A DNA stretch of 61,558 nt from Methylophilaceae bacterium. Lineage in GTDB: Bacteria; Pseudomonadota; Gammaproteobacteria; Burkholderiales; Methylophilaceae. The notes beneath the pieces were generated by a model, which saw nothing but the letters and a program-made list of their open reading frames with translations, did no database searches and was not told where the DNA came from. The position numbers and the translations under genes were made by a program. This document shows, piece after piece, positions 31,916-54,268 of this stretch (the first letter of the stretch is position 1; every line of letters starts with the position of its first letter). The DNA lies in NCBI GenBank assembly GCA_947451235.1, contig CANFZA010000001.1, forward strand, positions 72,991-134,548. The letters are read 5' to 3'.

Positions 31916-31968
31916 TCAGCGTTGGTCCGGCAATGGCCTGTTGCAGTACGATTTACCGAATTTTTAGT

Positions 31969-31993
31969 GTTTAGTTTAATGTTTAGTTTTAAT
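31969..31993. repeat. 12-bp duplication before ccoN
   Basis: GTTTAGTTTAAT is followed by GTTTAGTTTTAAT in the 96-base gap between ccoS and ccoN, about 20 bases before the ccoN start. Confidence 0.6.
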
Positions 31994-32011
31994 TTTTAAA
32001 AGGCAGAAGTT

Positions 32012-33493
32012 ATGAGCGTCAGCAATGCAGCATCAGCCAACTTAGGGTTGATCAAACCAGAATCGGAGAGTCTATCATCGGCATTTTACGATGATTATGC
32101 TGTCAGAAATTTTACAATAATGGCCGTGTTTTGGGGCGTGGTCGGCATGATGATGGGCGTTATTATCGCCTCGCAACTTGCCTTCCCTGCACTAAATTTT
32201 GATACCGCATGGTTTAGCTTTGGCCGTTTACGCCCATTGCATACCAATTTAGTGGTATTTGCTTTTGGTGGTTGTACGCTATTAGGGACGTCTTTTTACA
32301 TTGTGCAGCGTACCGGCCAAACCCGCTTACGCTTTCCATTGCTATCGCGCATGGTGTTTTGGGGTTATCAAGTCATCATTTTAGCGGCCATTATTTCACT
32401 ACCTTTGGGTTATACCTCAGGCAAAGAATATGCCGAACTAGAATGGCCAATTGACGTGTTATTGCTGATTATTTGGCTAATGTACGCAACCGTATTCTTC
32501 GGTACTGTAGCTGCCAGAAAAATGAAGCATATCTATGTGGCTAACTGGTTTTACGGTGCTTTTATTATCGTCATTGCTATTTTGCATTTGGTGAATAGTA
32601 TGGAAGTGCCGGCTGAATTAATGAAATCCTATTCAGCTTATGCCGGCGTACAAGATGCCATGATTCAATGGTGGTATGGCCATAACGTGGTTGGGTTTTT
32701 CTTAACCGCAGGCTTTTTAGGCATGATGTACTACTTTGTGCCTAAGCAAGCAGGCCGTCCAGTGTATTCATATCGCCTATCTATTGTGCATTTTTGGGGC
32801 TTGATTTTCACTTATATGTGGGCAGGTTCGCACCATTTGCACTACACCGCTTTGCCTGATTGGACACAATCTGTCGGTATGGTGTTATCGCTTATTTTGT
32901 TAGCACCAAGCTGGGGCGGCATGATTAACGGCATGATGACGATGTCTGGCGCATGGCATAAATTGCGCGACGATCCTATCCTACGCTTCATGATTGTATC
33001 GCTATCTTTCTACGGTATGAGTACGTTTGAAGGCCCGATGATGGCGATTAAAACCGTCAATGCGCTATCACATTACACTGACTGGACCATTGGCCACGTG
33101 CATTCAGGCGCGCTAGGCTGGGTTGGATTCATCGCAATGGGCGCTATTTATTACCTTGTACCGCGCTTATATAGCCAAACTGAAATGTATAGCAAAAAAG
33201 CCATTGAATTACACTTTTGGTTAGCCACTATCGGCATTGTTTTATACATCGTTGCGATGTGGATTTCAGGCATTGCTGAAGGTTTAATGTGGCGCGCAAT
33301 GAACGACGACGGCACGCTTACCTATACATTTGTAGAGGCAGTTAAAGCTACGCATCCGTTCTATGTTATTCGTATGATAGGCGGTATGTTATATCTAACC
33401 GGCACCTGCATTATGCTTTGGAATGTATTAAAAACGGCCTCTATGGGTCGCCATGCCTTAGCCAAAATACCATCAACACCTGTTCATGCATAA
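32012..33493 (+). CDS. ccoN: cbb3-type cytochrome c oxidase subunit I
   Basis: Catalytic subunit with low-spin heme b and the heme b3-CuB centre, reducing oxygen with high affinity. 493 residues with about 12 membrane helices. Heme and copper ligands are visible in [46 protein letters not shown] and [22 protein letters not shown] lies before the ATG. It is the first structural gene of the ccoNOQP set. Confidence 0.97.
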
Positions 33494-37964: not shown

Positions 37965-39233
37965 CTAGTGAGCTGACAAAGCTATCACTTGCAAACCGTC
38001 TTTCAGGGTATTCCACACTAAAAATGGCTGATTATTTTTAGCCAATAATTGTGGATAATCGGCTTTATCTGCAGGACTTCCAAGGGTGCTAGCAATAACT
38101 TTGGCATCACCCCAGTTTCTACCACCATCATCTGAAAACAAACCCATAATCATGTTCTTGGTAACGACATCTTTAGTGTCAGTTTCACGCCAGACTAACC
38201 ACACTTTATCACCCAGGCTTAGTAAGGCTGGGTGCCCCGCTTGCTTGCTATGATCGCCAAATTTTTTGGCTGGTGAAGAAACCCAAGCCTCACCATCCAT
38301 ACGGGCATAAAATAAACTGGCTTTTTTACCAGACTCATCATTGCCGCCATCAAACCACGCCATGTGATAACCCCACCAATTTTTGCCCTCGCCACCTGCA
38401 GCCAAAGCCGCACCATGATGCGGGCAACCCTCCACTTTCCAGCGACCAAATGTTGCACGCTTCACTATTGGTGCTTGACCAAGTTTGGCAGGAATCTCCG
38501 CAATCATGTGGTCGCGCTCGCTACCTTCAAACACATGGCGCCACATGGCAACCACCGTACCATCTGGCTTATTAGCAAAGGCAATACGGCAACATTCACA
38601 ACTGCTATCTGCCAACTTTTGTTCGGGGGCAAAGCTTGCGCCTTGATTGCTAGAAACTGCATAATAAATTGCCGCGCCTTCGTAAGGTTTACCAGTTGCT
38701 TTAGCGACGATTAAATCGCGCTTATCCACCCACGACACAGTAATGGTGCCATTGGCCGCTACATTGAGCGCATCAAATCTGTGGGTAATTTCAGCACGGT
38801 CTTGATGCACAATGACTGGCGCTTCAAAAGTTTTACCACCATTAATTGAGCGTGAAAACCACACATAACCGCTGAAGGGCTTCGCCAATGCCTGAGTCCA
38901 AGTAAGGTAAATATTACCTTCTGGGCCTATGGCAATTTTCGGGCGCGCTTCACCATCTGCGGCTATTTTTTGAGCGATGGGGTTAATGTTGATTGCTTTA
39001 GAAAAATGCTGACCTAAATCAGTGCTGACATCCACTTTCACAAATTCGCCATTGCTACTGACGCGCCATAACTTACCCGTGGCATCAAATGCCACACTAA
39101 TCGCTAATGTAGACTTTGTTGCAGACTTTTCCGTGTGATCGTGCCCTTCATGCGCTTGTGCCAAGAAGGAAAATCCGACTAAGAGCGTTGTACAAAGTAC
39201 CAATAAATTTTTCAATAGCTTTTTCATGCGCAC
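37965..39233 (-). CDS. Exported BNR-repeat (sialidase-like beta-propeller) protein with metal-type motifs
   Basis: A 422-residue protein with a signal peptide (FSFLAQA) followed directly by the His/Asp-rich HEGHDH. The body has repeated Asp-box-like units (SRSINGGKTFEA, SNQGASFAPE, SDDGGRNWGDA) that give a six-bladed propeller as in sialidases. Catalytic sialidase residues were not identified. Two Cys/His clusters, SCECCR (about residue 215) and GCPHHG (about 270), and the N-terminal His patch suggest copper or other metal binding. It starts divergently from the beta-barrel gene at 39365, with a RegA-type box between them. Confidence 0.75.
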   Translation of the reverse strand: MRMKKLLKNLLVLCTTLLVGFSFLAQAHEGHDHTEKSATKSTLAISVAFDATGKLWRVSSNGEFVKVDVSTDLGQHFSKAININPIAQKIAADGEARPKIAIGPEGNIYLTWTQALAKPFSGYVWFSRSINGGKTFEAPVIVHQDRAEITHRFDALNVAANGTITVSWVDKRDLIVAKATGKPYEGAAIYYAVSSNQGASFAPEQKLADSSCECCRIAFANKPDGTVVAMWRHVFEGSERDHMIAEIPAKLGQAPIVKRATFGRWKVEGCPHHGAALAAGGEGKNWWGYHMAWFDGGNDESGKKASLFYARMDGEAWVSSPAKKFGDHSKQAGHPALLSLGDKVWLVWRETDTKDVVTKNMIMGLFSDDGGRNWGDAKVIASTLGSPADKADYPQLLAKNNQPFLVWNTLKDGLQVIALSAH

Positions 39234-39291
39234 GATATTACTCTAATTTCTAGCAGTCATTCAATGCATTAATGATGAATAAAAACGGTCT

Positions 39292-39306
39292 GCGGCAATA
39301 TGCCAC
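39292..39306. promoter_or_regulatory. RegA/PrrA-type box
   Basis: GCGGC-AATAT-GCCAC fits the half-site plan GCGRC-N5-GNCRC, the same as the two sites next to regB. It sits 59 bases before the BNR-protein start and about 70 bases before the beta-barrel start. Confidence 0.6.
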
Positions 39307-39335
39307 ATGTACAGCATCCGGTGGGCTCTTTATAA

Positions 39336-39364: not shown

Positions 39365-40333
39365 GTGCCCATCATGAACGTAAAGCTCAACAGACAAAAC
39401 GCACTTGCCGTGCTAGCTATTTCAACCCTTGCTTACGCAAGCCCATCATTAGCCTGTTCAAGCTGCGGTTGTACACTTAATTCAGACTGGACCACACAAG
39501 GCATTGCTACTGGCACAGGCACGCGCTTCGACATTCGTTTTGACTATTTCAAACAAAATGATTATCGTAGTGGCACAAAATCTGCGAGTCGGGCAGATGT
39601 GCAAGCTTCAGGCAACGAAGTTCAAGACACCACCATTAATCGCAACCTGACTTTAGGCATAGATCACAGCTTTAACCAAGACTGGGCGATAAGTGCACAA
39701 TTGCCGATATTCAGCCGCTCGCATGGCACTTATGAAAACTATCCTGACCAAGATTCCATCATTAGCTCATCGTCAAAAGGCATAGGTGATTTACGCATCA
39801 CCGGTCGTTACCAAGGCCTGAGTGCTGACCACAGCAACGGCATTACGCTAGGTTTAAAACTACCTACCGGTGAAACCAACGATACATTTAAAAATGGCGC
39901 AACACTAGATAGAGGCTTGCAACTAGGCACAGGCACAACAGATTTATTGTTAGGCGGCTACCATTTTGGCAACATTAATCGCGACTGGGATTATTTTGCA
40001 CAAGCTACCTTACAAATTGCACTAAACACGCACAATGAATTTCGTCCGGGTAATGGCTTAAATGCTAGTGCTGGTGTGCGCTATATGGGTTTTGAAACAT
40101 TTATTCCACAATTGCAGTTGAACACAAGAATTGAAAAACGTGAGTCTGGCGCACAAGCCGACATTGCCAATAGCGGTGCTACTTTGCTATACATTAGCCC
40201 TGGCATCACAGCGCCTATCAACAAACAACTGCAAGCATTTGGATTCTTACAAGTGCCGATTTATCAGCGCGTAAACGGCTACCAAATTGAACCTGACTTG
40301 CTTCTTTCTGCAGGTTTGCGTTATAGCTTCTAG
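39365..40333 (+). CDS. Outer-membrane beta-barrel protein with N-terminal CSSCGC motif
   Basis: A 322-residue exported protein. The signal peptide (LAVLAISTLAYASPSLA) is followed at once by CSSCGCTLNSDW, after which the chain has the alternating pattern and terminal Phe (SAGLRYSF) of an outer-membrane barrel, resembling MetA-pathway/transporter-type barrels. The Cys-rich head could bind a metal; if the first Cys is lipidated the protein would be a lipoprotein, but the lipobox is poor. GTG at 39365 or ATG at 39374 may be the start. It is divergent from the BNR-repeat protein and convergent with the TlpA-like gene. Confidence 0.75.
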   Translation: MPIMNVKLNRQNALAVLAISTLAYASPSLACSSCGCTLNSDWTTQGIATGTGTRFDIRFDYFKQNDYRSGTKSASRADVQASGNEVQDTTINRNLTLGIDHSFNQDWAISAQLPIFSRSHGTYENYPDQDSIISSSSKGIGDLRITGRYQGLSADHSNGITLGLKLPTGETNDTFKNGATLDRGLQLGTGTTDLLLGGYHFGNINRDWDYFAQATLQIALNTHNEFRPGNGLNASAGVRYMGFETFIPQLQLNTRIEKRESGAQADIANSGATLLYISPGITAPINKQLQAFGFLQVPIYQRVNGYQIEPDLLLSAGLRYSF

Positions 40334-45488: not shown

Positions 45489-45920
45489 TTATTGGCTAAT
45501 TTGACTGATTGAAGGGTCAGTCACAAAGCCGATTTTAACTAGACCGGCTTTAGCGGCCAGAGACATTACCCGCGCCACATTTTCGTAATGTGTTAGCCTA
45601 TCGGCATGAATATGTAGCTCTGGTGGTGTGGGTTTTTTCGCCTCTAAGGCAAAGCGTAAGTCCATCGATTTTTCTGGCAGCTGTTCGCCGTTCCAAAACA
45701 AACGGCCATCTTCACGAATAGACAGTTCAATATGATCTGGCTTGGTAATATTCGGACGACTAGCGGCTTTAGGTAAATCAATTTTCACTGAATTTGTAAG
45801 CAGCGGCGCAGTGATAATAAAAATCACCAGTAACACTAGCATCACGTCTACCAGCGGCACCACATTAATCTCAGCCTTAACCGCATGTTGCTGTTGGCTA
45901 TTAAAACTTCCAAAACTCAC
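45489..45920 (-). CDS. exbD: ExbD, proton-channel subunit of the TonB motor
   Basis: A 143-residue protein with a single N-terminal membrane helix containing the essential Asp (INVVPLVDVMLVLLVIFII) and a periplasmic domain (VKIDLPKA...). It forms the TonB energy motor with ExbB. The start overlaps the exbB stop by 4 bases. It is the last gene of the receptor-tonB-exbB-exbD operon. Confidence 0.94.
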   Translation of the reverse strand: MSFGSFNSQQQHAVKAEINVVPLVDVMLVLLVIFIITAPLLTNSVKIDLPKAASRPNITKPDHIELSIREDGRLFWNGEQLPEKSMDLRFALEAKKPTPPELHIHADRLTHYENVARVMSLAAKAGLVKIGFVTDPSISQISQ

Positions 45921-46654
45921 GATGCATCTCCGACGGACTTCAACTCAGGTCTAAGCATTGGCTTGGTTTTTTCTAACGGCTCATTACCCACCGTCAGCAT
46001 CACAAACAAATCATGTGCAAATGCATCAAGTTTCATTAACCACAAACGGTTGCGGCGGTTAAATGCGTTATAAGCAAAAACGGCCGGAATCGCCACGGCT
46101 AAACCAATCGCCGTCATAATCAGCGCTTCGCCGACTGGCCCAGCCACTTTATCTAACGCGCCTTGACCAGAAACACCAATTTGTACCAAGGCATGATAAA
46201 TGGCCCACACTGTGCCGAACAAACCAATATAAGGCGAAGCTGAACCTGCAGTAGCCAATATCGTCAGGCCATTTTCAGTACGCACCGCTTCTTGGTCTAT
46301 GCCATTACGCAAAGCGCGCGTCATAAATTCAGACATGCCACCCGCTGCCGCCAAATTTTGTAAGCCGTGCCGGTTGGCGTTATTCATGGCGTTAATACCT
46401 TCAGTCGCCAAGCTAGCAAAAGCATTATCAGGTTTATTTTGCTGCAAATTAACGCCTAGCTTTTCAACAGTAACATGCTGGCAAAAAGTGGCTAAAAAAC
46501 GTTCAGCACGCTTTGCCTCAAGAAAATTAGCCAGCCACTTGGTGAAAATTAAATACCAGCTTGCCACTGACAGCAGCAATAAAATAAACAGCACGCCTTT
46601 GCCTATGGTATCTACCTGTGCAACAAAATGCGTAAAACCTAATTCATGCGACAT
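45917..46654 (-). CDS. exbB: ExbB, proton-channel subunit of the TonB motor
   Basis: A 245-residue MotA/TolQ/ExbB protein with three membrane helices (about 18-38, 130-155, 175-200) and the conserved LATAGSASPYIGLFGTVWAIYHAL and VGEALIMTAIGLAVAIPAVFAYN. It starts one base after tonB stops. It is dedicated to the adjacent receptor by operon structure. Confidence 0.94.
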   Translation of the reverse strand: MSHELGFTHFVAQVDTIGKGVLFILLLLSVASWYLIFTKWLANFLEAKRAERFLATFCQHVTVEKLGVNLQQNKPDNAFASLATEGINAMNNANRHGLQNLAAAGGMSEFMTRALRNGIDQEAVRTENGLTILATAGSASPYIGLFGTVWAIYHALVQIGVSGQGALDKVAGPVGEALIMTAIGLAVAIPAVFAYNAFNRRNRLWLMKLDAFAHDLFVMLTVGNEPLEKTKPMLRPELKSVGDAS

Positions 46655-46655
46655 A

Positions 46656-47399
46656 TCAACGTCCTTCTAAAATAAAATCAAATGGTTGCAAAGCAACTGC
46701 TCGAACTGCAGCGCCGTTTTGAGTAGATGGATTACATTGCCAATTTTTTATTGCTGCTAAACCGGCTTCATCCAAGCGCCTATAGCCAGAGCTTGTCACC
46801 ACGCGTGCAGCACTAATATGGCCGCTTTCATCTAATTCTACCCGCAGCACAACCTGCCCCTGCTCATTCTGGCGACGCGATGCAGCAGGGTAATTTGGGA
46901 TAGCTCGTTGCGGGCAAAATATGGATAATTCAGTTGACAAAACCATAGGCGCTGAAGGTTTAGGCACTGAGTCTGCGCTAGCTTTTAGGGTGGTTTCTGC
47001 GGTAAATTCTGATTTTACTTCAGCCATTTTAACTGGCTCAGTCTGCACAGGAGCGATTGGCTCAACTGCAGATGTAGCCAGATTAGTAGACACCAATATT
47101 GATACTGCCTTAGATAAACGCACTGGCGGCAGGTTTGTTAGCTTAACTTTTTTTACTGCCGGCTTTGCTAGCTCAGGCGGTTTTGGTAGCTCATGCTGGT
47201 TTGAAAGCTCAAGTGGCTTTTCTTGTACTTTAGGCAGTTGTAGATTAATCAAATTCACAAATAAAGTAGCGGCCTTTGCAGGTGGCGAAATCAATTTATA
47301 GTGCCACGCGCCAAATATCAGGGCAAGGTGAAGCATCAGCACTAACGCCAAACCCGCTAGCTTAGTTAAATAATCATCCGAAGTTTGAAAAAAATTCAA
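46656..47399 (-). CDS. tonB: TonB energy-transducing protein
   Basis: A 247-residue protein with an N-terminal membrane anchor (LTKLAGLALVLMLHLALIFGAWH), a Pro/Lys/Glu linker and the C-terminal TonB domain (IPNYPAASRRQNEQGQVVLRV ... SGYRRLDEAGLAAIKNW). It connects ExbBD to the outer-membrane receptor. The linker contains an 18-bp x3 in-frame repeat (plus-strand 47167-47220) coding the ELxxP(P)/ELA-type hexapeptides. It lies 21 bases after the receptor gene. Confidence 0.92.
   Translation of the reverse strand: MNFFQTSDDYLTKLAGLALVLMLHLALIFGAWHYKLISPPAKAATLFVNLINLQLPKVQEKPLELSNQHELPKPPELAKPAVKKVKLTNLPPVRLSKAVSILVSTNLATSAVEPIAPVQTEPVKMAEVKSEFTAETTLKASADSVPKPSAPMVLSTELSIFCPQRAIPNYPAASRRQNEQGQVVLRVELDESGHISAARVVTSSGYRRLDEAGLAAIKNWQCNPSTQNGAAVRAVALQPFDFILEGR
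47167..47220 (-). repeat. 18-bp x3 repeat in the TonB linker
   Basis: Plus-strand units GCTAGCTCAGGCGGTTTT, GGTAGCTCATGCTGGTTT and GAAAGCTCAAGTGGCTTT are contiguous and in frame with tonB, extending its periplasm-spanning linker by 6 residues per unit. Confidence 0.85.
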
Positions 47400-47420: not shown

Positions 47421-49805
47421 TTAATAATCAAACTTCATGCCAGCAAACCAAGTTCTTTGAGGATATGGGTTAGGGTTTACATAATATTTGAAGTTATTAA
47501 GATTATTTACGCCTACGTTAGCCGACCATCTATCCGCAAACTTATATACAACCTTGGCATCCATCACAAAATAGTGGCTAACTGCGCCATAAACATTTGG
47601 ATTAACATCGTTGTATCTTTTGTTAACCGCATCGTAAAGCGCATTATGCTGATGCCCACTATAGCGGCCAGCCAAGGTAAACGTCAGCTTATCATTAGCA
47701 TGATAAACACCCATTAAAGTAGCGCGCCAGTCTGGAATTCTTGGTTGATCTGTGCCTTCCAAACCAGGATTTTTGCTATCTTTAGTAATAGTGGAATCAA
47801 CATAAGTGACGCTGCCATTAAAGTCCAACCCATTCACCCATAAGTCTTTGAGTTGCAATGAAGTTTCCACGCCATTTGTGTACACTTTATCTACGTTTTG
47901 AATGCTAGAAATTGTAAATGCCGGATTTGTGATATCTGTCTGAGAAATCAAAGCATCGCTTTTATTTTCCCAGAAAAATGAAGTGCGCCACGCGCCATTA
48001 TTTAGCCATCGTTCAGCAACGAGTTCGCCAGAAACAACATGTTCAGGCTTCAGATTAGGATCGTTCACTTTAGCGCCCGAGGCGTCAGAAAACGTTTGAA
48101 ACATTTCAGACACAGTAGGAAAACGATACGCTTTACCCAAAGAACCGCGTAAAGACCAATCATCTGTAGCTTGAAATGATAATGACGCTTTGGGTGAAAA
48201 GGCGGTATTCGAGCGGTCTTGGTAATTAAGCTGCTTATAAGCAGAAGTGTTTGCAACATTATAGTTACTACCATCGTAGGCAGCCCAAGACTCAAGTCGG
48301 CCTCCCAAAACCAGCTTCCAGTCAGACGCGAAAGCCCAAGCATCTTGCAAATAAAGTGCCTGTGTTTCTGTTTTACCATAGGAGTTGGTACCTACAGCAC
48401 CTGAAGTGCTAGTACGCCAATTTGGCAGTGGGGCTGTGTTGCTACCATAAGTGACTGAATCAAGCGCATAACGATCAAAATGGTAACCAAAACCTACTTG
48501 GTGCTTACTTCTTAAATTTCCATCTGGACGCCACTCGCCACGCACATCGAAAGTCCCCCAACCAGTGCCACTGGCATCGGTAAGCGTTCCGCCTACAATA
48601 GTTGCGCCATCACTAGCGGTTAATCCCGAATTAGCTGTTGAGGAACGTGTTAGGTCTTTATTTTGATTAAAATAGCTCGCGACTACATCCCAATCCCACG
48701 TGCCGCCTGTAGCAGATTTTAGGGATAAGCCGTGCATAATATGTTCACTTTTTGTATTACTAGAGGCTGGCGAAACCACCGTGTAATCTTTACCATCGAT
48801 GCGTAAATATGAATACGCACCAGTACCGCCCGAGCCATAAACGGTATTGCCAGCAGAATCTTTTAAATAACTTTCACCTCTTTTTTCAGAATCATTTTGC
48901 CAATATCCCATTGTGTAAGTACCACGAATTGTAGAAGTAAAATCGTAGCCTAGCTTTAGTTTAAGATTATCTTGCACAGTATGGTCGATACCAGCAGCGG
49001 CAGTGGTAACGCGCGCTTTTCCTGAAGTATCAATATCGGAATACGCACCGCTAACAACCGTATATTTACCAAGGGTAGCAGCAGTACCTGTTTTGGTGGT
49101 AGCCGCTGTAAACGTCATAGGGTGCCCATGATTATCTAAATGATCAGCGCTCACAATAAAAGATAAATCGTTGTATTTACTACCGATGGAAGCCGCACCA
49201 TGCACGCCTTCGTAATATTTATCGCTTCCGTACAACTTGAAATTTTCACCAAAATAATCAAGCTTCACGTGCGCTTCAAACTTTTCTGGCATACGGGTTT
49301 TCAACACCACCACGCCACCTGCAGAATTGCCTGGATAAAGTGCCGAAAAAGGACCATACATGACATCAACACGATCAATTTCTTCGGGAGTCACCATATT
49401 CCAGCGCGGTGCTGTGCTAAAACTATTATTCAGAAAATTAGATAGCAACAAATCATCCGCATATACGGTTGTTTGAGCGCTAGCGATGGAACTGTTAACC
49501 CGCATGACCAGTACGCTATTGGTATCTCCAATGTAGCGCTCGCGCACATGCACGCTAGGCAAATATTGCAATATTTGTGGCGTAGTTACCGCATTGATAC
49601 TTTCGCTGATTTGTTTAGCCGTCACACTCTCGGTAGTTGAAGGAACGTTAGCAGGCACAGCAGCTTTATCAGCTATTACTGCACGGATATGCATCACCGG
49701 CATTGTTGTCGCGGGGTTATCAATAGACGCAGGTGCTTTATCATCAGCCATTGCCCAACCATTACTGCACAACAATAGCGTACTCAAGCTTATTGTTTTA
49801 ATCAC
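47421..49805 (-). CDS. TonB-dependent outer-membrane receptor, substrate unknown
   Basis: A 794-residue receptor: signal peptide (CSNGWAMA), plug domain with TTPQILQYLPSVHVRERY, VDVMYGPFSALYPGNSAGGVVVLKTR (about 75-185), then a 22-strand barrel ending in NPYPQRTWFAGMKFDY. The start is GTG at 49805 with GGGGAG 8 bases upstream. It heads its own tonB-exbB-exbD operon, so the system is self-contained. There is no siderophore, heme or cobalamin gene nearby to give the ligand; a metal or metal chelate is only an inference. The promoter region carries two RegA-type boxes shared with regB. Confidence 0.93.
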   Translation of the reverse strand: MIKTISLSTLLLCSNGWAMADDKAPASIDNPATTMPVMHIRAVIADKAAVPANVPSTTESVTAKQISESINAVTTPQILQYLPSVHVRERYIGDTNSVLVMRVNSSIASAQTTVYADDLLLSNFLNNSFSTAPRWNMVTPEEIDRVDVMYGPFSALYPGNSAGGVVVLKTRMPEKFEAHVKLDYFGENFKLYGSDKYYEGVHGAASIGSKYNDLSFIVSADHLDNHGHPMTFTAATTKTGTAATLGKYTVVSGAYSDIDTSGKARVTTAAAGIDHTVQDNLKLKLGYDFTSTIRGTYTMGYWQNDSEKRGESYLKDSAGNTVYGSGGTGAYSYLRIDGKDYTVVSPASSNTKSEHIMHGLSLKSATGGTWDWDVVASYFNQNKDLTRSSTANSGLTASDGATIVGGTLTDASGTGWGTFDVRGEWRPDGNLRSKHQVGFGYHFDRYALDSVTYGSNTAPLPNWRTSTSGAVGTNSYGKTETQALYLQDAWAFASDWKLVLGGRLESWAAYDGSNYNVANTSAYKQLNYQDRSNTAFSPKASLSFQATDDWSLRGSLGKAYRFPTVSEMFQTFSDASGAKVNDPNLKPEHVVSGELVAERWLNNGAWRTSFFWENKSDALISQTDITNPAFTISSIQNVDKVYTNGVETSLQLKDLWVNGLDFNGSVTYVDSTITKDSKNPGLEGTDQPRIPDWRATLMGVYHANDKLTFTLAGRYSGHQHNALYDAVNKRYNDVNPNVYGAVSHYFVMDAKVVYKFADRWSANVGVNNLNNFKYYVNPNPYPQRTWFAGMKFDY

Positions 49806-49865
49806 GCGACTATCTCCCCAGATTTTCAGCTTGGTATTTTATGGGAGAGTAGTTGCCAGTGGAAT

Positions 49866-49895
49866 GTGGCATATCGTCGCGCGACAATTTGCCGC
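49866..49895. promoter_or_regulatory. Two head-to-tail RegA/PrrA-type boxes
   Basis: GTGGC-ATATC-GTCGC (49866-49880) and GCGAC-AATTT-GCCGC (49881-49895) abut exactly, forming a 30-base imperfect palindrome around GTCGCGCGAC. Both fit the half-site plan GCGRC-N5-GNCRC (in one orientation or the other) described for RegA/PrrA/RegR. The sites lie just upstream of the regB -35 region and about 60-90 bases before the receptor start, able to serve both divergent promoters. Confidence 0.7.
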
Positions 49896-49904
49896 AGGCG
49901 GTAA

Positions 49905-49935
49905 TTGATTATTATGGGCACGAACACTTTATAAT
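49905..49935 (+). promoter_or_regulatory. Candidate regBA promoter
   Basis: TTGATT (49905-49910), 19-base spacer, TATAAT (49930-49935), giving a start near 49942 and a leader of about 50 bases before regB. The spacer is longer than the optimum 17, as expected of an activated or weak promoter; the RegA-type boxes lie immediately upstream. Confidence 0.5.
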
Positions 49936-49993
49936 ACAGGGGAAATTTGTTCGCTAAATTTTCATATTATTAGCCTTTAGGGTCACCAAAATA

Positions 49994-51298
49994 ATGCAGT
50001 CAAGCTCCCCTGCTATATCCAATGCAACACGCCAAAACATGCAGCGTTTAGTCGTGTTGCGTAGCGTGATGATGGTCTGCTTAACGGCAGTCATTATTGG
50101 TTTAAGGCTTGCATCTATTCCCCTGCCTGTTTTACCGTTACTGCTTACCATTGCCGGTTTAGGTTTTCTCAATGGCGTGGCATGGCGGCGTTTAAATCAC
50201 ACCCAGCAAACGACACAACGTGAATTATTCGCACAATTATTGGGCGATATCAGCGCGCTTACTATGCTTTTTTATTTTAGCGGCGGCTATAGCAACCCGT
50301 TTATCTGGATGTATTTATTGCCCATTACCGTTGCGGCAGTGGCTTTACGCGCAGTTTATGCGTGGGTAATTGCCAGCTTGAGCATTGCCTGTTATACCTT
50401 GCTGATGTTTTACCACGTACCACTTTCGCACCTGCACATGCACGCGCAATTGGGCGCTGCAAACAGCATACATTTAGATATTCATTTAGTGGGCATGTGG
50501 CTGGGCTTTGTTGTCAGCTCGATTATTGTGGCCATTTTCATTGCGCGTATTGGACAAAACCTGCGAGATTACGATAAAACCATCGCTATCGTCCGCGAAA
50601 AAGCCTTAGAAAGTGAGCGCATGCTAGCGCTGGGAACCCTAGCCACTAGCGCCGCACACGAGCTAGGTACGCCCTTGGCAACCATGGCAATTATCAGCAA
50701 AGAATTGACGCAAGATTACGCCAACCAGCCCGAGCTTGTGCAGCAATTGGAAATCATGCAAAAACAAGTATCGCGCTGCAAAGAAATATTATCGTCGATT
50801 ACCCGCAATGCCGGACAAACCCGCGCAGATGCAGGCCAAGGTTTTACACTGCGCGAGTTTTTACAAGAAGCTATTCAGCGCTGGCGCGACACACGGCCGG
50901 CCACAGAGTTAATCGTCAACATGCCGAACGTAAGCGATAACCCAGCTATTTTTATGGATAGAACTTTCACCCAGGCCCTGTTAAATTTACTAGATAACGC
51001 TGCAGACGAATCGCCAGAGCGCATTTTATTGGATGCTAACTGGGATGAAAAAACGCTCAAAATTCAGATACGTGACTTTGGCGCTGGCCTAAGTGCCGAG
51101 ACTAAAAGTAAATTAGGCACACCGTTTTTTACTTCAAAAAATGACGCGGATGTGGGTTTGGGCATGGGCTTAGGTGTGTACTTAACGCAAGTGACCCTAG
51201 CGCGCTACGAAGGTGAGTTAAGCTTAAATAATCATCCCGATGGCGGCGTGCTAACCTTAGTGCATTTACCGCTTAAAAATTTGCGTATTACCAACTAA
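49994..51298 (+). CDS. regB: RegB/PrrB-type redox sensor histidine kinase
   Basis: A 434-residue membrane sensor kinase with about six membrane helices (20-185), the quinone-sensing motif GGYSNPF (97-103), the H-box TSAAHELGTPLATMA (phospho-His222) and the redox-reactive Cys262 in QVSRCKEIL. The ATP-binding domain with GMGLGVYLTQ ends at about 430. These are the diagnostic RegB/PrrB/ActS features. The pair controls respiration, and in other bacteria cbb3 oxidase, in response to the quinone pool. regA follows after 10 bases. Confidence 0.93.
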   Translation: MQSSSPAISNATRQNMQRLVVLRSVMMVCLTAVIIGLRLASIPLPVLPLLLTIAGLGFLNGVAWRRLNHTQQTTQRELFAQLLGDISALTMLFYFSGGYSNPFIWMYLLPITVAAVALRAVYAWVIASLSIACYTLLMFYHVPLSHLHMHAQLGAANSIHLDIHLVGMWLGFVVSSIIVAIFIARIGQNLRDYDKTIAIVREKALESERMLALGTLATSAAHELGTPLATMAIISKELTQDYANQPELVQQLEIMQKQVSRCKEILSSITRNAGQTRADAGQGFTLREFLQEAIQRWRDTRPATELIVNMPNVSDNPAIFMDRTFTQALLNLLDNAADESPERILLDANWDEKTLKIQIRDFGAGLSAETKSKLGTPFFTSKNDADVGLGMGLGVYLTQVTLARYEGELSLNNHPDGGVLTLVHLPLKNLRITN

Positions 51299-51308
51299 AG
51301 GCAACGCC

Positions 51309-51926
51309 GTGGAACATTTAAATTCAGAAAGTCTAAATGCAAATTTGTTAGAAAAAAATTTATTGGACAAAGAGTTAGCCGATAAAAATCTATCAGAAAA
51401 ACCTAGCCTGCTGTTAGTCGATGATGACGAAGATTTTCTAAATGCACTGGCTCCAGCCATGCGCAAACGTGGCTTTTTAGTCAGCCTAGCCAATAGTGCA
51501 GAAAGCGCTTTTGAAATGGCTAAAATTGAACCGCCAGAATTTGCCGTCGTCGATTTAAAAATGTCAGGAAACTCCGGCTTAGTGCTGGTCCGCCAATTAG
51601 CCAGCTTAAATGCCGGCACAAAAGTTGTAGTATTAACCGGCTTTGCCAGCGTGGCTACCGCAGTTGAAGCCATTAAACTAGGCGCCACACACTACCTTGC
51701 AAAACCAGTAGATGCAGATGAAATTGTCGCCGCTTTTGAAAAACAATCAGGCAATGCCGAGCTTGAATTATCATCCAACCCACTCTCAATCGACCGCTTG
51801 GAATGGGAGCATATTCAACGCGTACTTTCCGAACATGACGGCAATATCTCCGCCACCGCTCGTAGTTTGAATATGCATAGGCGTACCTTGCAAAGAAAGT
51901 TAGGGAAAAATCCTAGTAAAAAGTAG
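51309..51926 (+). CDS. regA: RegA/PrrA-type response regulator
   Basis: A 205-residue response regulator: receiver domain (about 33-150) with phospho-acceptor Asp82 in VVDLKMSGNSGL and Lys in AKPVD, then a Fis-type helix-turn-helix (about 160-200: HIQRVLSEHDGNISATARSLNMHRRTLQRKL). The start is GTG at 51309. It has a repeated N-terminal extension, NLLEK-NLLDK-ELADK-NLSEK (residues 12-31), from four 15-bp units; the receiver core of the family starts after it. It probably binds the boxes at 49866-49895 and 39292-39306. Confidence 0.93.
   Translation: MEHLNSESLNANLLEKNLLDKELADKNLSEKPSLLLVDDDEDFLNALAPAMRKRGFLVSLANSAESAFEMAKIEPPEFAVVDLKMSGNSGLVLVRQLASLNAGTKVVVLTGFASVATAVEAIKLGATHYLAKPVDADEIVAAFEKQSGNAELELSSNPLSIDRLEWEHIQRVLSEHDGNISATARSLNMHRRTLQRKLGKNPSKK
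51342..51401 (+). repeat. 15-bp x4 in-frame repeat at the regA N-terminus
   Basis: Units at 51342, 51357, 51372 and 51387 encode NLLEK, NLLDK, ELADK and NLSEK. The third base and some others vary, so the duplication is not recent, yet the frame and the Leu/Lys pattern are kept. Confidence 0.85.
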
Positions 51927-52065: not shown

Positions 52066-52704
52066 CTAGGCGCTAACTTTCCCAAACCGGATATCAATTA
52101 AATTATCCGTAATTTGCATAATTTCCTGCTTGGAATGACTAATGTAAATCATCGGGATTTTTATTTCGTCGGCAACTAATTTTAAAAATGGCAATATTTG
52201 GCTTTTAAGCCTGTCATCTAAAGAGGCTAACGGTTCATCTAACATCAATAATCTTGGCGAGCTGAGCAATGCCCGACCTAGTGCCACACGCTGCTTTTCA
52301 CCTCCAGAAAGTTGATGCGGACGCTGCTTTAGTAGCAGTCCAATTTCTAATAACTTTACGATCTGCTCAAGCTTAAATTGTTGTTTTTGGACTGGTGTGA
52401 AGTGTAACGCGTAACATAAGTTATGTTCAACTGTCAGGTGTGGAAACAGGCGGCCATCTTGAAACACCAAGCCTATCCTGCGCTGATGTATCGGCTTGTT
52501 GATACGTTGTTCATGGTCGAATAAACATTCATCGTCAATGACAATACGGCCGCTATCTGGCCGAGTGATGCCTGCAATAATGCTCAATAAAGTGCTTTTA
52601 CCTGAGCCAGAAGGACCATATATCGCGCTTACTCGTTGGGTTAATTGCAGCGAGGCATCTAACTCAAAGTGTTTACGCTTTAACCGGACTTTAATTTCAA
52701 TCAT
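52066..52704 (-). CDS. modC: Molybdate ABC-transporter ATPase, short form
   Basis: A 212-residue ATPase with Walker A GPSGSGKSTLLS, Q-loop VFQDGRLFPHL, signature LSGGEKQRVALGRAL, Walker B LLMLDEPLASLDD and the switch His in YISHSKQE. It powers molybdate uptake with ModB. ModC is normally about 350 residues with a C-terminal Mop/TOBE regulatory domain; here that domain is absent and the protein stops just after the ABC core. The start codon lies in a 17-bp tandem-repeat array (52687-52754). Confidence 0.9.
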   Translation of the reverse strand: MIEIKVRLKRKHFELDASLQLTQRVSAIYGPSGSGKSTLLSIIAGITRPDSGRIVIDDECLFDHEQRINKPIHQRRIGLVFQDGRLFPHLTVEHNLCYALHFTPVQKQQFKLEQIVKLLEIGLLLKQRPHQLSGGEKQRVALGRALLSSPRLLMLDEPLASLDDRLKSQILPFLKLVADEIKIPMIYISHSKQEIMQITDNLIDIRFGKVSA

Positions 52705-52754
52705 GCTTTATTTCACCCATGCTTTAATTTCATACATGTTTTAATTTCATACAT
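52687..52754 (-). repeat. Four 16-17-bp units spanning the modB-modC junction
   Basis: On the minus strand the unit ATGTATGAAATTAAAAC is repeated from 52754 as ATGTATGAAATTAAA, ATGTATGAAATTAAA, ATGGGTGAAATAAA and ATGATTGAAATTAAA (start of modC). The first copy overlaps the modB stop codon. Each copy carries an ATG, so the modC initiation region has been multiplied. Confidence 0.9.
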
Positions 52755-53457
52755 GGTCACGACCAATCTTTTGGTTAGCTTTACGCTCCAACTTATCGCT
52801 TATCATCAATGCACCCAAGGCTAACGCCATGCTTAATATCACCAAACGTAAAGCCGGCAAGTCGCCATCAGGTATCTGCGTATAACTATAAATCGCCAGC
52901 GGTAGCGTGCGCGTTTCATTTTCAATATTGCCGACAAAGGTAATAGTTGCACCAAACTCACCTAAGCTGCGACTAAAAGCCAAAATCAAACCGGTAATAA
53001 TTCCTGGCATTGCTAAAGGTAAGGTAATGGTAAAAAACACTTTAATCGGATTGGCTCCCAAAGATTGGGCGGCAATTTCCAAGCCCCTGTCCACTTGTGA
53101 AATGGCTAATCTGGCTGAACGCACCATTAGCGGAAACGCCATAACCGCAGAGGCAACGACAGCGCCCATCCAAGTAAAAGCCAAACTTATGCCAAAAATA
53201 TTGTGCAAGTATTTTCCGATTAACCCTTGGTTGCCCAATAACAGTAGTAGCAAAAATCCTGGCACTACTGGGGGTAAAACTAAGGGCAAATGTACAAGGC
53301 TATCGAGTAAGGTTTTGCCAAAAAATGATTTTCTGGCGAGCACCCAAGCAACCATAATAGCCGGCACTAGTATCAGTGCGACACAAAACAGAGCCACCTT
53401 TAAAGATAAGCCCAGTATGGCTAATTCAGCGGGTGTAAATCGTAAAATATCTAGCAT
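52747..53457 (-). CDS. modB: Molybdate ABC-transporter permease
   Basis: A 236-residue inner-membrane permease with about five to six helices and the EAA-loop region (AAQSLGANPIKVFFTITLPLAMPGIITGLILAF), followed by RSLGEFGATITFVGN, typical of ModB. It forms the channel for molybdate delivered by ModA. It lies 19 bases after modA. Confidence 0.94.
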   Translation of the reverse strand: MLDILRFTPAELAILGLSLKVALFCVALILVPAIMVAWVLARKSFFGKTLLDSLVHLPLVLPPVVPGFLLLLLLGNQGLIGKYLHNIFGISLAFTWMGAVVASAVMAFPLMVRSARLAISQVDRGLEIAAQSLGANPIKVFFTITLPLAMPGIITGLILAFSRSLGEFGATITFVGNIENETRTLPLAIYSYTQIPDGDLPALRLVILSMALALGALMISDKLERKANQKIGRDHV

Positions 53458-53476
53458 GATGTTCTATCAAAAGGGC

Positions 53477-54268
53477 TTAATGAACGTTAACAGTAAAACC
53501 ATATTGAGTGAAGATTACTTTGGCTTTGTCTGATTTTAAATAATCATAAAAGGCCGTCGCTTGCGGGCTCGCACTTTTCACCAAAGCCAAAGGATAGACA
53601 ATTGGGTCGTGACTAGTTTCTGGAAGGGTAGCAATATTTTCTACCTTACTAGAAACTTTGGCATCCGTTGCATAAACAATCCCCGCATCACATTCACCAC
53701 GTTCAACAAATACTAAGGCGGCACGCACATCTTGCGTACCAACAATACGCATTTTAACGGCATCCCACCAATTAAGATTTTTTAATGATTGTTTAGCGTA
53801 AATCCCCACCGGCACTGAGTCTAATTCACCTGTGCATAATTTGCCACTAAACGCTCCTGCAATATTAAAACCTTTATTGAGTTCCACTTTGAATGCCTTA
53901 CCCCTAGGGGCAATCAGCGCTAATTGATTGCCTAATAGATTGACTTTACTATCCACTTTCAGCAGATTTTTATCTTGCAGGTAGTTCATCCATTTGCTAT
54001 CTGCCGATACAAAAATATCAGCAGGGGCACCTTTTTCTATCTGTTTAGCTAATGTTGATGATGAGGAAAATGAAGTTTGTATTTGTACAGACTGGTCTTT
54101 TTCATACTGTGTGGCGATGTCAGAAATGGCGTTAGTTAAGCTTGCTGCGGCAAATACCGTCACTTTGTCTTGCGCCTTTGACACGTTGCTAATCAACACT
54201 GTGCTAATCAAGATGAACAGCGTACTTAATAGCCACTTGAGGTTACTGCTTTTGAGCATTATCTTCAC
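53477..54268 (-). CDS. modA: Molybdate-binding periplasmic protein
   Basis: A 263-residue solute-binding protein: signal peptide ending NVSKAQ, then KVTVFAAASLTNAISDIA, the FSSSSTLAKQIEKGAPADIFVSAD motif that binds the oxyanion, and VERGECDAGIVYATDAK. It captures molybdate (possibly tungstate). It heads the modABC operon. No ModE-type operator (ATCGCTATATA-like) was recognised upstream; the upstream region is a porin remnant and repeats. Confidence 0.94.
   Translation of the reverse strand: MKIMLKSSNLKWLLSTLFILISTVLISNVSKAQDKVTVFAAASLTNAISDIATQYEKDQSVQIQTSFSSSSTLAKQIEKGAPADIFVSADSKWMNYLQDKNLLKVDSKVNLLGNQLALIAPRGKAFKVELNKGFNIAGAFSGKLCTGELDSVPVGIYAKQSLKNLNWWDAVKMRIVGTQDVRAALVFVERGECDAGIVYATDAKVSSKVENIATLPETSHDPIVYPLALVKSASPQATAFYDYLKSDKAKVIFTQYGFTVNVH

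Follow-up and report, generated by a model that had tools for sequence, protein, structure and literature searches.

A 30-bp element at 49866-49895, located between regB and the gene of a TonB-dependent receptor in a Methylophilaceae bacterium, is most probably a double RegA operator common to two divergent sigma-70-type promoters and part of a wider regulon, a reading to which we give a probability of about 0.78 from the sequence. The window referred to below is the whole stretch of 61,558 nucleotides that was analysed. At the locus and at the related sites, boxes of the RegA type are conserved, keep a fixed spacing to their promoters and precede recurrent classes of genes. In the proposed mechanism, RegB would phosphorylate RegA when the respiratory chain is reduced, and RegA would bind both boxes. 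Box 1 (predicted centre at -44) adjoins the weak -35 of the receptor promoter, and RegA bound there would activate the receptor-tonB-exbB-exbD operon; from box 2, situated one helical turn further from its own promoter (predicted centre at -54), it would control regB-regA itself. The wider regulon would comprise the same fixed-position boxes before TonB-dependent receptors, including OprC-type copper receptors, as well as before nosZ, nirK and ccoN. This arrangement suggests that the respiratory state may directly control which metals the cell imports.

The regB-receptor locus

The genes of the receptor (47421-49805; 794 aa, Pfam Plug and barrel domains, with orthologues), TonB (46656-47399; TonB_C), ExbB (45917-46654) and ExbD (45489-45920) are contiguous on the minus strand, forming the TonB operon described in the first-pass annotation. 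The last two were assigned from matches to the MotA/TolQ/ExbB and ExbD/TolR families, respectively; both proteins score below every curated cut-off, TolQ/TolR models outscore those of ExbB/ExbD, and the genes follow those of the receptor and TonB. Two close relatives encode a PepSY_TM protein between receptor and tonB (L031:5108-6553 and L032:7604-9007) that is absent in the window; a PepSY membrane protein in that position is an arrangement as in metal-chelate uptake. The structure model of the window receptor has a mean pLDDT of 63, and a fold search with this model matched siderophore, haem, PQQ and copper receptors alike.

On the plus strand lie regB (49994-51298) and regA (51309-51926), the latter encoding a response regulator with a Fis-type helix-turn-helix. 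Directly after regA, on the opposite strand, modABC-like molybdate transporter genes occupy 52066-54268. In Rhodobacter RegB we take the redox Cys-265 to follow the phosphorylated histidine, His 225; in the sensor kinase of the window, read without alignment to the Rhodobacter protein, Cys 262 stands 40 residues past His 222. The quinone-binding motif of RegB, quoted as GGXXNPF in PMC8191878, is present as GGYSNPF at residue 97. The NCBIfam RegB and RegA models (NF033792 and NF033791) are the best family match for the two proteins, although the scores stay below the cut-offs (254.9 against 350 bits and 196.1 against 250 bits, respectively); the RegA cut-off is passed by none of 250 genomes of the order. 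RegA and PrrA (PDB 1umq) share an identical recognition helix, LNMHRRTLQR.

Promoter geometry

Box 1 (49866-49880, minus strand) is the outer box for the receptor and box 2 (49881-49895, plus strand) the outer box for regB. The predicted receptor -10, TAAAAT (49836-49841, minus strand), lies 24 bases beyond the 17-bp box, and a weak -35-like hexamer, TTCCAC (49859-49864, minus strand), abuts it. For regB, TTGATT (49905-49910, plus strand) stands downstream of the boxes and is followed by the predicted -10, TATAAT (49930-49935, plus strand), 34 bases beyond box 2. Counted from predicted start sites near 49829 (minus strand) and 49942 (plus strand), the boxes would be centred near -44 for the receptor and near -54 for regB in conventional numbering. 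The first-pass annotation had placed the boxes upstream of a candidate regB -35 and 60-90 bases before the receptor start; they do precede TTGATT, and they lie 61-90 bases from the start at 49805.

This geometry is kept with little variation. In the window and in all 16 Methylotenera relatives with a receptor beside regB, a -10-like hexamer (at least 4 of 6 matches) starts exactly 24 bases past the 17-bp outer box, and box, TT and hexamer are retained in 17/17 promoters, with a poor hexamer abutting the box at the -35 place. On the regB side, where a -10 was scored at 5 or more matches in 25 genus relatives, 12 relatives have the -10 at 23 or 24 bases from the nearest box. Six relatives and the window have it at 34, and four relatives at 45; these last four also have TATTAT at 25, which makes their assignment ambiguous. 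Altogether 22 of the 25 fall at 23/24, 34 or 45; of the other three, two lack a -10 with enough matches and the third lacks a box. The regB distances are about 10.5 bases apart, roughly one helical turn, as expected from an activator bound on one face of the helix. Direct control of both promoters, which had been proposed from the position of the boxes, is supported by this spacing and would fit receptor and regB alike.

It is conceivable, and on balance unlikely, that RegA binds here yet represses the receptor, as at many iron-uptake genes of R. capsulatus. About 40 such genes are RegA-repressed in that species in minimal medium, according to the accessible part of PMC5359404. At the receptor promoter, however, the core promoter is left free, the box stopping just short of the -35 position on its upstream side, and a weak -35 (TTCCAC) combined with a fixed spacing is found at activator-dependent promoters.

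A probable wider regulon in the genus

A double RegA operator acting on the receptor would not stand alone in the genus. Across 52 genus genomes, 93 copies of the palindrome TGYGRCANNNTGYCRCA were counted and 9 of its reversed control, with at least one copy of the palindrome in 40 of the genomes. This pattern was reached by narrowing TGYGRC-N5-GYCRCA, which shows no enrichment in the window's own genome (3 matches against 2 controls) and gives 34 matches against 7 controls summed over eight relatives. A looser form, GYGRC-N5-GYCGC, matched 79 and 81 times in the own genome where the comparison gave 21 and 18, and was not used for the regulon, because a repetitive GC-rich palindrome of the GCGGCGAGGCGCCGC type inflates its counts. 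This palindrome has many copies (G000:C1:6890-7505, 31956-32504 and elsewhere) and perhaps represents a repeat or terminator family.

Eighty of the 93 boxes were examined, the other 13 being one in the window, two at regB promoters (G018 and G019) and ten more. Forty-one of the 80 stand upstream of TonB-dependent receptors, some of them the regB-linked ones, although the ten genomes in which such receptors were counted have no more than 7 to 15 apiece; receptor identity rests on Pfam for one member of each of four receptor clusters and on blastp clustering for the rest. A -10-like hexamer at +24 is found in 38/41 boxed receptor promoters and in 36/37 after removal of redundancy, while other offsets reach a mean of 4 and a maximum of 14. 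Other boxes precede nosZ, ccoN, nirK, regB and the gene of an outer-membrane protein with a divergent BNR-repeat partner, and in a few cases a box lies about 260-300 bp upstream of cytochrome bd. In this group, ccoN, nosZ, nirK and cytochrome bd are classic RegA-type targets.

The window itself contains a second box of this kind, TGCGGCAATATGCCACA (39291-39307, plus strand). It is followed at a distance of 24 bases by TATAAT and precedes the gene of an outer-membrane-type protein (39365-40333). This gene is divergent from that of a BNR-repeat protein (37965-39233) and lies beside ccoG-like and fixH-like genes. The outer-membrane/BNR pair recurs together with its box in four relatives (L189, L204, L224 and L226).

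The composite promoter beyond the genus and its association with RegA

When box and promoter are combined in one composite pattern (box, TT, 21 bases, TANAAT), a collection of 84,980 species yields at least 119 stretches with a match, against an estimate of about 2 by chance, and the loci among the 80 matches listed belong mostly to beta- and gammaproteobacteria. From the 83 composite sites outside the order sample described below, 11 without an open frame and 14 frames of the window's genus were set aside; the remaining 58 downstream proteins, all outside the genus, include by Pfam 20 with a TonB receptor plug, 8 PepSY_TM, 6 amidohydrolase, 3 BNR, 2 TonB, 1 ExbB and 1 RegA. In one locus (L295) the box directly precedes a regA gene.

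The composite also travels with RegA. A full-length RegA relative (E of 1e-42 or better) is present in 48 of 50 composite-bearing genomes outside the genus, the other two showing receiver domains only. Among 250 genomes sampled from the order irrespective of the box, the composite occurs in 9 (11 sites, 0 controls), and RegA is detected in 9/9 of these against 114/250 of the sample (Fisher p=7e-4); the nine are related, four of them coming from one genus and one being the window's own. Within the window's genus, RegA was detected in 42 of 52 genomes, and the ten without it are drafts 71-94% complete. The strict box is found in 34 of the 42 and in 6 of the ten, with no clear difference, and draft gaps may or may not explain the boxes in genomes without detected RegA.

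The boxes, those of the six genomes included, could also be used by another regulator with a similar palindrome, a CRP/FNR-type or a different Fis-type protein, which we consider quite improbable. Half-sites such as TGTGAC presumably resemble those of CRP, but the 17-bp palindrome has an odd spacing that we take to be unlike a CRP site. The boxes instead fit the RegA and RegR consensus strings, stand at regB or regA promoters and co-occur with RegA in the 48/50 and 9/9 genomes mentioned above. Compared by eye with the strings quoted in the accessible part of PMC5506826, box 2 fully fits the RegA consensus SSGNVRDNHYSNCSS and has one mismatch to the RegR consensus GNGRCRTTNNGNCGC, and box 1 has one mismatch to SSGNVRDNHYSNCSS. 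For the RegA sites of At. ferrooxidans, the available part of the corresponding study states that its authors found no motif. RegA is the probable binder of the boxes, given the identity of its helix with that of PrrA, the fit to the consensus and the co-occurrence.

A broader extension of the double-operator reading, which we hold tentatively and at slightly under even odds, is that in many betaproteobacteria and some gammaproteobacteria RegA directly and generally activates TonB-dependent metal import through one rigid type of promoter. This promoter (box, 24 bases, -10) would drive receptors, TonB, PepSY membrane proteins and copper handling, alongside the copper enzymes of respiration and denitrification, in such a way that a reduced respiratory chain would order the metal needed by its own oxidases and reductases.

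Conservation and specificity of the box pair

The first-pass annotation had named conservation in related Methylophilaceae as support for its reading of the boxes, and this is what was found: of the 25 genus relatives for which a regB start was available, 24 have one or more boxes upstream of regB, L036 being the sole exception. Outside the genus, a box stands within 60 bp upstream of regB in 3/7 regions (L061, L062 and L064). The abutting pair, a pattern that overlooks diverged copies, has 14 sites in a set of 61 genomes; they fall in 12 genomes, every one belonging to the window's genus. Its reversed control gives no match within the genus and 3 matches in two genomes outside it. Placed by coordinates, 12 of the 14 sites are at regB promoters; another (G010:C49:77019-77048) precedes a second, more distant RegA-like gene (C49:77129) by about 80 bp, and the remaining one is elsewhere in G010. 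Upstream of regB in two relatives (L050 and L059), four to five RegA-type boxes are arranged head to tail with a 15-bp period.

A divergent receptor adjoins regB in 16 of the 25 relatives, and regB boxes persist in genomes without it (e.g. L043, L044, L050, L058 and L059). Together with the known autoregulation of regBA operons (PMC5506826, accessible part), this could mean that the boxes serve autoregulation of regB-regA alone and that the receptor is a passive neighbour. Such a reading has little probability, given that all 17 receptor-side promoters retain the box, the TT and, at +24, the -10-like hexamer and that the same arrangement precedes receptors distant from regB.

The pair described in the first-pass annotation, two abutting 15-bp sites of the form GCGRC-N5-GNCRC, is borne out at the sequence level. 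The pattern matches on both strands at 49881-49895 and on the minus strand at 49866-49880, and the 30 bases form the near-palindrome that had been noted, with 24 of 30 positions self-complementary. Taken singly, the pattern is weak evidence in the window, with 6 matches against a shuffle mean of 1.73 and 1/100 shuffles reaching 6. The abutting pair, absent from all 100 dinucleotide shuffles of the window, is more than chance. That the near-palindrome is a mere chance or structural feature has a negligible probability, since the weak enrichment of single boxes is outweighed by the absence of the pair from the shuffles and by its retention in relatives.

Relation to known RegA systems

RegA is known for the control of respiration, photosynthesis and denitrification. 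The locus shares with the RegA/PrrA/RegR regulons of Rhodobacter and Bradyrhizobium the RegB-RegA pair, the 15-bp imperfect inverted repeat, autoregulation, and targets such as cbb3 oxidase and denitrification genes. It differs from them in that TonB-dependent receptors constitute the largest class of boxed genes; the accessible part of PMC5359404 tabulates 33 ChIP peaks of R. capsulatus that go with a change in expression, and none of them is named as a TonB-dependent receptor.

A close parallel is Methylomonas sp. DH-1, likewise a methylotroph with RegB/RegA, in which RegA is needed for the expression of a TonB-dependent receptor and of the tonB-exbB-exbD operon, both falling to 3-23% of wild type in its absence (PMC13274454, accessible part). 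The first-pass annotation had regarded such an operon as a target not known for RegA, a claim that no longer holds for RegA dependence as such and that seems to stand for the direct link of fixed geometry. In the DH-1 system, ChIP placed RegA only at feo, with no appreciable binding at the receptor and tonB promoters according to the available part of the report (PMC13274454, 2026). This negative result counts against the double-operator reading as we analyse it. The two systems would differ here in that direct binding in DH-1 is at feo alone, whereas the receptor promoters described above hold fixed boxes, suggesting direct control. Within the open-access literature, no published description of RegA boxes in the promoters of TonB-dependent receptors was found, and the direct fixed-geometry link with its recurrence at many receptor genes appears new. 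If the double-operator reading is true, the supply of metal cofactors and the enzymes that need them would obey one redox signal. The fixed geometry could be tested in culturable Methylobacillus, Nitrosomonas and Herbaspirillum, and it predicts which unassigned receptors belong to the regulon.

Copper receptors among the boxed genes

NosZ, NirK and cbb3 oxidase are copper enzymes. One group of boxed receptors, encoded beside coaX, carries CxxxM in 21/21 members and HxM in 17/17 aligned members. These motifs are the copper ligands of OprC, and OprC/NosA is expressed without oxygen (PMC8610252, accessible part). In spite of this likeness, the one coaX-linked member that was scored remains far under the cut-off of the copper-receptor model (88.5 against 472 bits), and haem-receptor models score too; one member aligns to OprC with an E of 4e-13. 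The receptor of the window falls outside this OprC-type group: in the alignment its plug loop has no Cys, and the CxxxM-HxM copper site is absent from it. A CopC-like protein follows the composite promoter in one genome (L368, by eye). The OprC-type receptor copy of the window's own genome (G000:C72, L227) is boxed and its frame is apparently split in two, while relatives have intact copies.
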